64,000 nucleotides of DNA from Pseudomonadota bacterium. GTDB taxonomy: Bacteria; Chloroflexota; UBA6077; JAJPGT01. The translations under genes and the position numbers were made by a program. The DNA lies in contig JAJPGT010000047.1 in NCBI GenBank assembly GCA_021325655.1, positions 62,001 through 126,000 on the forward strand, written 5' to 3'. Numbering within the stretch: the first letter of the stretch is position 1; each line of letters starts with the position of its first letter. The notes beneath the pieces were generated by a model. That model saw nothing but the letters and a program-made list of their open reading frames with translations. It was not told the DNA's origin and ran no database searches. Positions 29,661 through 37,856 of the stretch are shown piece after piece.

Positions 29661-32012
29661 GTGTCCACGGCGGGGTTACAGCCTGATACGAAGCCGGCAA
29701 CGTTCCTGCAGGAGTTCCAGGCCCGGCTCCCATACACGCTCGATCCGTTCCAGGTCGAGGCGATGCAGGCGCTGGAGGCTGGGAAATCCGTGCTGGTGGC
29801 CGCCCCGACGGGCACTGGCAAGACGGTGATCGCCGAGTTCGGGATCGCACTCGCGCATCGCGCCGGCTTGCGCTCGATCTACACCACGCCGATCAAGGCG
29901 TTGTCCAACCAGAAGTTCCGCGACTTCTCGCAGCAGTACAGCGGCGAGGTGGGCCTGCTGACAGGCGACATTGTCGTCAACCCGGGCGGCCGGGTCCTGG
30001 TGATGACCACCGAGGTCCTCCGCAACATGCTGGTGCAGGGAGCGGATATCTCCGACGTGGGCGTGGTGGTCTTCGACGAAGTGCACTACATGGGCGACCC
30101 CGACCGTGGGACCGCGTGGGAGGAATCGATTCTGCTTGCGCCGCGGCGCCTGCCGCTCGTCTGCCTCTCCGCCACGGTGCCCAATCTCGCCGAGATCGCT
30201 GCCTGGCTGCGCGCCAGCCACGGCGAGCTGGAATGCATCTTCCACGCCGAGCGCGCCGTGCCGCTGGAGACGCGTTACTACGTGGATGGCAAGGCGTGGA
30301 CGGTGCTGGATGCGCAGGGGCGGCGGCGGAGGTGGTTCGCCGGCGTCGGCGGCGAGCTCGCCAGCCGCATCCGTGGCGGCGCGCACGGCGAGCCGAACGA
30401 CGAGCGCGAGCCACGGGAGGAGCCGAAGCCGTGGGAGGTGCTCCGCGAGCTGGAGAGCCAGCGGCTCACCCCGGCCATCTACTTCCTGTTCGGCCGGCGC
30501 GCCTGCGAGGAGGCGGCCGAGAGCTGCCTGGTGTTGAAGCCAGTCCCGCACGGCGCGGACCTGGTGCGCGAGGCGCGGGCGCGGCTGGCCGACCTGCCGC
30601 CACAGGACCGGGCGTTGCGCCAGCTCGGATTGCTGTTCCGGCTGCTGCCGCGCGGAGTGGCGGTCCACCACGCCGGGCTGCTCCCGGTGGTGAAGATACT
30701 GGTCGAGGAGTTCTTCGCCTCCGGCCGGCTGCGCGCCGTGTTCGCCACGGACACGCTGGCGCTGGGAATCAACATGCCGGCCCGGACGGTTGTCCTGGGC
30801 GAGATGGTCAAGTTCGACGGCGAGACCCGGCGGCTGCTGACGCCCAACGAGTATCGCCAGATGGTGGGTCGAGCCGGAAGGCGGGGGATCGACGAGAAGG
30901 GCTACGCGGTCATCCTCTACTCCCCCTGGGTCTCGTTCGAGCGGAGCATGGAGGTCGCCACCGGCGAGCTGCTGCCGCTGGTCAGCGCCTTCAACCCCGA
31001 CTACTCGACCGCCCTCAACCTCTGGCGCACTCCCAAGGACCAGGACCAGCTTGCCGATCTGTATGCCCGCAGCCTGCGCCGCTTCCAGCACGATCGCCGG
31101 CTGGAAGAGATCACGGAGCGCTGGGAGGCCTTGCAGGACCGCTTCGAGGCACTCAAAGCGCGCTCCCCGGACGATCCTGCCACCTGGCGCGCGGCGCGTG
31201 AGCTGAACCAGGCCGAGCGCGAGCTCCGCCTGGCGCGCAAGGAGGCGGCGCGGGAGGCCCGCGCCACCGTCACCGGGCTGGCCCGGGTGCTGGAGCTGTT
31301 CGGCTACGTGAGCAACGGTCGGCCGACCTGGAAGGCGGACTACCTGCGGGCGATCTTCGACACCAACGCGCTTACGCTGGCCGAGCTGGTCACGGGCCGG
31401 TATCTCGAAGCGCTCGAGCCCGATGAGATCGCCGAGCTCTGCTCCTGGTTCGCCTTCTCCCGCGACGTGCCTGTTCGCTCCCTGCCGATCACCCGGCGAC
31501 TACAGTGGGTGCGGCAGGAGCTGGACGCGCTCCACGGCGCGGTGCTGGCCGAGGAGCGGCTGGCGGGAGTGGAGCAGTCGCGGGTGCTGAACGACGACTT
31601 CCGGGGCGCGGCGCTCGCCTGGGCCCAGGGGCAGCCGCTCGGCGCCATCGCCGGCCGGGCACGCATCGCCGAGGGCGACCTGGTCAGTACCCTGCAGAAG
31701 ACACTCGACGTGCTCGGTCAGCTCAAGGACAGTGTCCGCCAGGCCCGCCGGCCAGCCGGTGAGGCCGCGGCGCGCCGCCCGAACGCGCAGGTGCTGCTCG
31801 CCCTGTTCGACGAGGCGGACCGCCTGCTCCGCCGGGGTGTGGTGGAAGCCTCGTACCAGTGGGCGCTGCGCGGCCCGCCCGAGCCGGATGCAGCGCAGAC
31901 GGCGGAGCTGGGCTTCTGGCCGAGCGAGCAGCCCGAGGAGGAGCGCCGACCGCGGCGGCCGTTCCGCCGGGCTCGAACGCCGGTCCGCCGGCCAGGGCGC
32001 CGCCAACCATAA
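29661..32012 (+). CDS. Ski2/Mtr4-like DEAD/DEAH-box RNA helicase
   Basis: VLVAAPTGTGKTVIAEFGIAL; YTTPIKALSNQKFRDF; VVFDEVHYMGDPDRGTAWEES; FATDTLALGINMPARTVVLGE; YRQMVGRAGRRGIDEKGYAVIL. Confidence 0.92.
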   Translation: MSTAGLQPDTKPATFLQEFQARLPYTLDPFQVEAMQALEAGKSVLVAAPTGTGKTVIAEFGIALAHRAGLRSIYTTPIKALSNQKFRDFSQQYSGEVGLLTGDIVVNPGGRVLVMTTEVLRNMLVQGADISDVGVVVFDEVHYMGDPDRGTAWEESILLAPRRLPLVCLSATVPNLAEIAAWLRASHGELECIFHAERAVPLETRYYVDGKAWTVLDAQGRRRRWFAGVGGELASRIRGGAHGEPNDEREPREEPKPWEVLRELESQRLTPAIYFLFGRRACEEAAESCLVLKPVPHGADLVREARARLADLPPQDRALRQLGLLFRLLPRGVAVHHAGLLPVVKILVEEFFASGRLRAVFATDTLALGINMPARTVVLGEMVKFDGETRRLLTPNEYRQMVGRAGRRGIDEKGYAVILYSPWVSFERSMEVATGELLPLVSAFNPDYSTALNLWRTPKDQDQLADLYARSLRRFQHDRRLEEITERWEALQDRFEALKARSPDDPATWRAARELNQAERELRLARKEAAREARATVTGLARVLELFGYVSNGRPTWKADYLRAIFDTNALTLAELVTGRYLEALEPDEIAELCSWFAFSRDVPVRSLPITRRLQWVRQELDALHGAVLAEERLAGVEQSRVLNDDFRGAALAWAQGQPLGAIAGRARIAEGDLVSTLQKTLDVLGQLKDSVRQARRPAGEAAARRPNAQVLLALFDEADRLLRRGVVEASYQWALRGPPEPDAAQTAELGFWPSEQPEEERRPRRPFRRARTPVRRPGRRQP

Positions 32013-33045: not shown

Positions 33046-33633
33046 TCACGGACCTACCCCTTCGAGCAGGAGGTTCCCCGTGCTCGCGTCGAAGACCTGG
33101 TACCCAACCGTGCCAGTGCGGATGGCTCCCGCGGGTCCGGCAACTCTGAAGCTGCCCTGAGAGGTGACCAGGCAGAGAAGTGCGCCAGGGGGCTGCCCCG
33201 TGGAGACGTTGAGGCGGGCGCTCACCTCGCTACTTGTCAGGAACTCGGCACTGGTGACGACCGGCGGAGGCTTCGAGGGGTCACGATCTGGATGAGGATA
33301 GGCCGTGACGAACGCAAGGACGTCGGCAGTCGTAAAGGCCGGGATGCTGCCGGGCAGGGTGGGCTTAATGGCAGGGATGCCTTGAGGAGGCGTCGGGACG
33401 CGAGTGGAGCTAGTCGCTGGTGTGCCCGGAATCGTTGGGGTGCCGGGAGCCGCCGGGACTGAGCGCCGCTGCCCGTCGGGCTGCTTCCGCGACACAACGG
33501 CCGTCGGCCTGGCAGCCGTCTCGGTGACTGCTTCGGGTTTCGCTGCCGAAGAATCCCGCTGCGCCCCCACCACGGTGATGGTAATAGCAAGGAGCACGAG
33601 GAGAGCAGAGACGTAGAGATATGTCCGATGCAT
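33046..33633 (-). CDS. Hypothetical secreted/anchored protein with Pro/Thr-rich linker
   Basis: N-terminal hydrophobic segment MHRTYLYVSALLVLLAITITVVG, Pro/Thr-rich linker, C-terminal domain TSAEFLTSSEVSARLNVSTGQPPGALLCLVTSQGSFRVAGPAG. Confidence 0.65.
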   Translation of the reverse strand: MHRTYLYVSALLVLLAITITVVGAQRDSSAAKPEAVTETAARPTAVVSRKQPDGQRRSVPAAPGTPTIPGTPATSSTRVPTPPQGIPAIKPTLPGSIPAFTTADVLAFVTAYPHPDRDPSKPPPVVTSAEFLTSSEVSARLNVSTGQPPGALLCLVTSQGSFRVAGPAGAIRTGTVGYQVFDASTGNLLLEGVGP

Positions 33634-33675: not shown

Positions 33676-34452
33676 CTAGCAGGGGCATTGAGCCTTCCAT
33701 TTCCCTCCTGTTGATGATGCCGATGGTCGAACTTGCCAAGAGGCGGATATGGGATAATCAGACTCGTCGGAGTCTCCGTCTCGTGTTTGATAAAAGTATC
33801 CCTGACCAAAGAGGAAGTACCGATTCTCTATCCAGTAAGCGAGTGGGGAAGATCCTCCGCTTGACGCAAATAGCTCTTCTCCAATATCAATCCTATTTGG
33901 CTACATCGTGTTGTTCATTGAGTCGTCAGTGACATAAACACCGGGAGACTCAAGTAGTACTGTGAATGATGTACTACTTGATCTTGTGATAGAGATGTGA
34001 GCGTACGCGCCGAAATCCTCCGCCGGGACATCACCGCCAAGATGACGCATGAAGCTGTAACCTGGCTTCTGTTCCGCCCAGAAATAAAATGGGTTTGGTG
34101 AAAAGTACCTCCTTGCCTCCTCTCCGGCCTCCACCCAGTAATAGTTTGTTCCAGTAAATTCTACTAACCAAAGCTCGTTGGTGATGAACGCGGCCTGCGG
34201 GGTGTCTGGGCTAGTCATGTTGACGATGTAGATGCCGGTGTCGGCTCCATCTGTGCCACCTTTCCAAGCGTGGACTCCATAGCAGTGTTGCACGTCGCAC
34301 GGATAGGCCAGAGCTAGTTCTCGGCTTGCTAACAAAATCTTCGGCAGAAGAATAGCTATGAAAAGGCTGAGTCTAGCGCGCTGCTTATTCGTCTGAATTG
34401 AGGTGGATGCTGTGTACTCAGGGGAGGAGCAGCCGGCCACTACCGAGCGCAC
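33676..34452 (-). pseudogene. Secreted hypothetical protein gene interrupted by an in-frame TAG at 33901-33903
   Basis: Upstream part ...ISITRSSSTSFTVLLESPGVYVTDDSMNNTM*; the same frame continues PNRIDIGEELFASSGGSSPLAYWIENRYFLFGQGYFYQTRDGDSDESDYPISASWQVRPSASSTGGKWKAQCPC* to 33676. Confidence 0.65.
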
Positions 34453-34684
34453 ACAATATTGCAGAAAAGGTCAAGGCTTGTCAATAGCCAGGAGTGCCTC
34501 ACACGGATGTGCCTGTGAGTGGCTTGGTCAGGCGAGGCACCTGAATCTCACGATACTATCGCGTCGGGACCAGGGGCTCTCGCCCCCATCGGGCGGCCAC
34601 GCCGCTCTGGCAGCGATCTGGAGGCCAGGAAACACTTGTGGGGGGCGGACCGCTGGGGTATGCTGCGCCGCGAGGGGAATCGCC

Positions 34685-35455
34685 ATGATCGTCACCGTGG
34701 TCGTGCTCCTGGTCATTATCCTGTTCCTGGTGTCGTCCTCCGTACGGCTGGTGCAGGAGTACGAGCGCGGGGTCATCTTCCGCCTTGGCCGACTGGTTGG
34801 CGCGCGCGGACCGGGCGTGTTCTTCCTGATCCCGCTGGTCGAGACGATGACGAAGGTGGATCTCCGCATCGTCACGCTGGACGTCCCGGCCCAGGAGACG
34901 ATCACCCGGGACAACGTGCAGCTCAAGGTGGACGCGGTGGTCTACTTCCGCGTGATCGACCCGGAGTCGGCGGTGACCAAGGTGCTGGACTACCGCCGGG
35001 CGACATCGCTGATGGCGCAGACGACGCTGCGGAGCGTGCTCGGGCAGTCGGACCTGGACGAGCTGCTGTCGCGGCGGGAGGAGATCAACGCCCGCCTACA
35101 GGCGATTCTGGACGAGCAGACGCATCCGTGGGGCGTGAAGGTGAGCATCGTGGAGCTGCGCGACGTCCAGCTCCCGGACACGATGCGGCGGGCGATGGCG
35201 CGGCAGGCGGAGGCGGAGCGCGAGAAGCGGGCGAAGATTATTCACGCCGAGGGCGAGCTGGCCGCGTCGAACCGCCTGGCGGAGGCGGCGTCGATCATCG
35301 GAAGCGAGCCGGCCGGGCTGCAGTTGCGCTTCTTGCAGACGCTGACGGAGATCGCTACGGAGAAGAGCCAGACCGTGGTGATCCCGCTCCCGCTCGACCT
35401 GGTGGGCCGGCTCCTGGCTGAGACGCGCGCGCCGGAGCGGGTGGCGCCGACGTGA
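34685..35455 (+). CDS. SPFH/band-7 slipin (stomatin-like) protein
   Basis: [90 protein letters not shown]. Confidence 0.9.
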
Positions 35456-35754
35456 GGCTGACCCCGCGCGAGGAGGACCGGCTGCTGCTGTTCGCCGCGG
35501 CCGAGCTGGCGCGCAAGCGCCGGGCCCGCGGTGTCTTGTTGAACCACCCGGAGGCTGTAGCGCTGATCTGCGACGAGCTGCTCGAGGCGGCGCGGGATGG
35601 CGCTTCGTACGACGAGGTGGTGGCGCTCGGGACCCGGATTCTGAGCCGAGCCGAGGTGATGGACGGGGTGCCGGAGATGCTCCCGCTGCTGCAGGTGGAA
35701 GCCGTCTTCGCGGACGGCACCAAGCTGCTCACGATCCACCGGCCGATCCGATGA
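35452..35754 (+). CDS. ureA: Urease subunit gamma
   Basis: [50 protein letters not shown]...[33 protein letters not shown] start overlaps the SPFH stop. Confidence 0.9.
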
Positions 35755-36149
35755 CCGAGCCGCCGGGCGCGCTCCGTCTGGCCCACCGGCCGATCCGCGT
35801 CAACCAGGGGCGGCGGACGGCGACGCTGGCGGTGCGCAACAGCTCCCGCTGGTCGATCCAGGTCTCATCCCATTACCACTTCTTCGAGGTCAACCGGCGC
35901 CTGGTGTTCGACCGCGCCCGGGCGTTCGGGATGCGGCTCGACGTCCCGGCTGGCGCCGGGGTACGCTGGGCGCCCGGGGAGACGAAAGAGGTGCGGCTGG
36001 TGGAGTTCGGCGGCCGGCGCGAGCTGTGGGGCTTCGCCGGCCTGACCAATGGCCCGGCCACGCCAGCGCGGCTGCCGGAGGCGCTGCGCCGCGCTGCCGA
36101 GCAGGGCTTTCTCGCCACCACGGACCTGCCCGAGCACGCGACGGACTGA
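35751..36149 (+). CDS. ureB: Urease subunit beta
   Basis: [73 protein letters not shown]. Confidence 0.9.

Positions 36150-37856
<1,707 letters not shown>

Follow-up and report, generated by a model that had tools for sequence, protein, structure and literature searches.

Gene A occupies a minus-strand reading frame of 258 codons (34452-33676) in the window, the whole stretch of 64,000 nucleotides that was analysed. In both DNA and translation the frame is interrupted once, by an in-frame TAG at 33901-33903. It runs from a GTG at 34452 through 183 codons to this TAG, continues for 74 sense codons, and closes with a second TAG at 33676-33678, immediately after the residues WKAQCPC. The TAG at 33901-33903 is the sole lesion, and the frame is otherwise free of decay. 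A preliminary description of the same DNA had reported an amber codon splitting a gene, with coding continuing in the same frame; this was borne out, and the translation given there was exact. Two GTG codons, at 34452 and 34440, are candidate starts, and no clear Shine-Dalgarno sequence was present at either of them. A promoter-like site was found just upstream; it is a consensus match only, with one such site found against 0.4 expected in shuffled sequences. An Rfam scan of the interval from 32 to 36 kb gave no match. The features of the locus and its surroundings are as follows.

29661-32012, plus strand: DEAD-box helicase with a DSHCT domain (Mtr4/Ski2-like)
33046-33633, minus strand: gene B, intact, coding for an exported protein of 195 aa and lying 42 nt beyond the end of A
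33676-33900, minus strand: gene A, 3′ part; 74 codons and TAG, with the last third of the domain, E193 and a W/C-rich C-terminus
33901-33903, minus strand: premature in-frame TAG at residue 184, in a model loop just ahead of the strand bearing E193
33904-34452, minus strand: gene A, 5′ part; 183 codons, with a signal-peptide-like N-terminus and the first two thirds of a predicted beta-sandwich domain
33904-34452, minus strand: conserved motifs H56xY58, E93xW95 and E108xG110 within the 5′ part of gene A
34455-34484, minus strand: promoter-like site ahead of A, with TTGACA and AATATT separated by 18 nt and a TG preceding the -10 element
34676-35455, plus strand: Band-7/SPFH gene, with a close paralogue (68%) in the genome and no conserved neighbours in the order
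35452-37856, plus strand: urease gamma, beta and alpha genes, following the SPFH gene

From base composition alone, 74 open codons would be expected by chance with a probability of about 0.025. A profile was built from 14 relatives of A, with the window excluded, and the parts of the protein on either side of the stop were scored against it. The 74-residue tail alone scored 52.2 bits (E 4e-18 with Z=1), and the best shuffled control about 11 bits; the part ahead of the stop scored 110.7 bits. Because the tail and the pre-stop part both match this window-free profile, the tail is, on sequence grounds, the final third of the domain that begins ahead of the stop. The proposal that the 74 residues past the stop are real coding sequence is thus upheld by the score of the tail alone. 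With regard to selection across the stop, the profile bits per residue were similar on the two sides, 0.79 ahead of the stop and 0.71 past it; no close relative, from the same genus or family as the window, was found.

The preliminary description had suggested a search for homologues of the joined protein. This returned full-length relatives that span the stop, and none that end at the MNNTM position. When read through the stop, A aligned without interruption with proteins of three other Chloroflexota genomes, from residues 49-55 to residues 251-257, with 30-33% identity over residues 49-257. The hosts of A relatives include Dictyobacter arantiisoli (class Ktedonobacteria) and a Ktedonobacterales MAG, and the acidobacterium Terracidiphilus gabretensis also carries one. 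Intact relatives that are open and collinear through the position of the stop therefore come from Ktedonobacteria and from an acidobacterium. Searches of Pfam, NCBIfam and PHROGs with A and B gave no usable match, a sequence search of the PDB with the A and B profiles returned nothing, and neither did a plasmid search for A.

The mature domain of read-through A was modelled with AlphaFold2 together with the 14 relatives, giving a beta-sandwich with a pLDDT of 89.6 and a pTM of 0.88. The best solved structures matched by this model in Foldseek were those of neprosin (7zu8, 7zvc, 9qr8, 7zva and 7zvb; E 5e-9 to 2e-8, TMq 0.67-0.71), followed by scytalidoglutamic peptidase (2ifw, 2ifr and 1s2b; E 2e-6 to 1.5e-5). 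Neprosin (PF03080) is a prolyl endopeptidase from plants; its two catalytic glutamates are E188 and E297, assisted by H134, Y136, Q173 and W175 (PMC9343461). The order of the conserved motifs in A, H56xY58 / E93xW95 / E108 / E193, mirrors H134xY136 / Q173xW175 / E188 / E297 of neprosin, and a step of 15 residues is common to both (E93 to E108 in A, Q173 to E188 in neprosin). E193 of A probably matches the catalytic E297.

The likeness to neprosin lies in the predicted fold, the order of motifs and export. The two proteins differ in that the mature domain of A has about 210 residues and neprosin about 250, and in that neprosin carries an all-beta N-terminal pro-domain of about 100 residues, whereas in A the mature domain directly follows the signal peptide. 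The position of Q173 in neprosin is occupied by E93 in A. In addition, A is paired with or fused to B, unlike neprosin, and no similarity between the two was detected at the sequence level. Four bacterial proteins with a Neprosin domain (L096-L099), three of them from the same phylum as the window, probably share their fold with A, but they belong to a different sequence family (hhalign probability 0.7%). As the profile comparison with the bacterial neprosins failed and A has no Pfam match, we do not class A as a neprosin. The eqolisins, which include scytalidoglutamic peptidase (MEROPS G1), resemble A in the beta-sandwich and in the conserved second Glu; they use a Gln/Glu dyad, whereas canonical A members have Glu first, and a search with A gave no match to the Pfam G1 family.

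From the model and the conserved motifs we infer that the A family comprises exported proteins of glutamic-peptidase fold with putative peptidase activity, some members being inactive. The intact relatives would most likely cut extracellular proteins by means of the pair E108 and E193 (window numbering); the likeness in fold and motifs could instead mean that A is related to such enzymes without being catalytic, or that it is a sandwich of the lectin type. Both glutamates are lost in the divergent members L064 and L068, where they are replaced by K and L, and E193 is lost in L020. These three may be inactive homologues of A.

The stop falls at model residue 136 of 210, in the loop between strands 124-131 and 139-147. 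It deletes 74 of the 210 mature residues, with the last six of the 15 strands of the model and E193, which sits nine codons past the stop. As six core strands and E193 are missing, the shortened product should, according to the model, neither fold nor act, and no working enzyme would be made.

Gene B is open in the window, with AAGGAG ahead of its ATG. The AlphaFold model of B has a pLDDT of 92, and a fold search of the PDB with it gave no match. Twelve of the 13 open copies of A have B downstream or fused: B follows as a separate gene in ten, and in two (G246 and G335) A is fused to a B-like domain. The exception is L049, in which a partial B precedes A. Such pairs were seen in Ktedonobacteria and in Terracidiphilus. 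A small search with a B profile built without the fusions recovered the fused B domain (E values 3e-6 and 7e-5). On the evidence of gene order and fusion, A and B are, as judged from these sequences, functionally linked. B, a small protein that is exported or anchored in the membrane, probably serves A as a partner or regulator. In Ktedonobacteria B is very common; several B genes often share one genome, and A is often missing. Of 47 genomes from this class, 25 contained B and 12 contained A.

Several single loci add detail to this distribution. The natural A-B fusion proteins (L019:1492-2676 and L162:1273-2583) come from two families of another Chloroflexota class, and at L049:1489-2493 (G285) one frame holds the partial B ahead of A, so that the usual order is inverted. 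At L035:289-1932 (G357) a PQQ beta-propeller protein has a B domain at its C-terminal end. Lipobox-like signals (for example VAACGGS and LSGCSG) occur in some A and B proteins (L062, L064, L020 and L078), which may mean that some genomes have a lipid-anchored form of the pair. A motif 'VFDAxTGNLL' had raised the idea that B is a PepSY-type peptidase inhibitor; this was rejected, as B had neither a Pfam match nor a match to a PDB fold.

About 21 copies of A were examined, a small and uneven sample, of which 13 were open and 8 broken. The window copy has one in-frame TAG. L062 and L074 each have one in-frame TAA, past which coding continues; L076 has a frameshift; L075 has split frames and its end is missing; L073 and L071 are truncated; and L036 is a remnant. 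B was open beside the broken A in the window, L062, L076 and L036, and in L074 it was without its N-terminus in frame. The pattern of a broken A beside an intact B has exceptions: B is missing from L073 and L075, and many B genes stand alone.

Gene A forms an AT-rich island, with a GC content of 0.51 against 0.63-0.70 in the flanks. Its GC at third codon positions is 0.57 ahead of the stop and 0.42 past it, against 0.85-0.91 in the neighbouring genes. The sampled genomes from the order and class of the window yielded no homologue of A. This absence, together with the foreign composition, indicates that the copy was probably acquired by horizontal transfer. Divergence in the trees of A and B is too great for a donor to be named, and when an unoccupied version of the locus was sought around the SPFH gene within the same order, no synteny was found. 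The AT-rich island, the partner gene B and the peptidase-like fold were all absent from the preliminary description. Elsewhere in the genome of the window, a weak tRNA-Phe call with the unusual anticodon AAA was obtained (L160:97-173, G000:C54; 38.9 bits), which is possibly a pseudo-tRNA or lies on a contaminant contig.

The explanation that we consider likely is that an A-B unit was acquired and that A, encoding an exported protein of glutamic-peptidase fold, was killed by a single nonsense mutation, with its partner B left open. In this mechanism the two genes would have entered together by horizontal transfer, and the mutation would have inactivated A as a dispensable acquired gene. Translation would halt nine codons short of E193, leaving no functional enzyme, and B, probably the partner or regulator of A, would remain open. 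The single in-frame stop, foreign composition and patchy distribution are also those of ordinary bacterial nonsense pseudogenes of acquired genes. The locus differs from these in that the partner B is open, in the window as at several further loci with a broken A. Alternatively, the TAG could be a wrong base in the draft, the real genome carrying an intact A. A single lesion without other decay, and with similar constraint on either side, is what such an error would leave, and the draft is fragmented: the window comes from a 142-kb contig in a 5.2-Mb genome of 111 contigs with an estimated contamination of 7.8%. However, other genomes contain at least seven further copies of A that are broken, by a variety of lesions, and inactivation therefore appears to be common in the family. 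The typical homopolymer error is an indel, unlike the in-frame stop seen here. We infer that the stop is biological, and regard a base error as unlikely.

A biological stop could also be read through, A then being made as a short protein with a full-length form at low rate. The frame is clean on either side of the stop, and L062 and L074 likewise have one in-frame stop each with coding continuing past it. In-frame stops in genes under selection have been reported to be common among prokaryotes (PMC7918605), which makes readthrough of such stops in bacteria a published possibility. However, none of the relatives has a stop at this alignment position; those of L062 and L074 lie elsewhere and are TAA, so that the codon differs between copies, and most relatives have no stop at all. 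TAG ends 5 of the 22 long open reading frames in the window and is thus a normal stop there, and no suppressor tRNA was detected, a CUA anticodon being present in none of the 47 tRNA genes of the genome. The downstream RNA shows no excess of structure over shuffled sequences (z = 0.26), and the short form, lacking six core strands and E193, should not fold. Readthrough is in our view quite improbable. The remaining alternative is that there are two separate genes, the upstream protein ending naturally at ...MNNTM and the tail belonging to a different open reading frame. A mechanical list of open reading frames gives only the 183-aa frame, as this would require, but the relatives run as one domain across this point and the tail holds no in-frame ATG, GTG or TTG; we find this arrangement scarcely credible. 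Among the three readings offered in the preliminary description, the nonsense mutation is thus the best supported, a sequencing error is less likely, and readthrough is disfavoured.

The broken A is in itself ordinary, though it is a clear example of homologues, and not the stop codon alone, settling the choice between pseudogene and readthrough. Of greater importance are the intact relatives, as they represent an exported family of predicted glutamic-peptidase fold that was unrecognised by the curated libraries used, and one to which gene order and fusion link a second unknown family, B. Glutamic peptidases are very poorly studied (PMC9343461). We tentatively raise the idea, which we hold to be doubtful at present, that A and B together make up a hitherto undescribed bacterial system, in which an exported glutamic peptidase would be accompanied by a dedicated exported partner that restrains it or protects the producer. 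Frequent loss of A with retention of B would be expected if A were costly and B protective. A natural protein partner for a glutamic peptidase, if true, would be directly testable.
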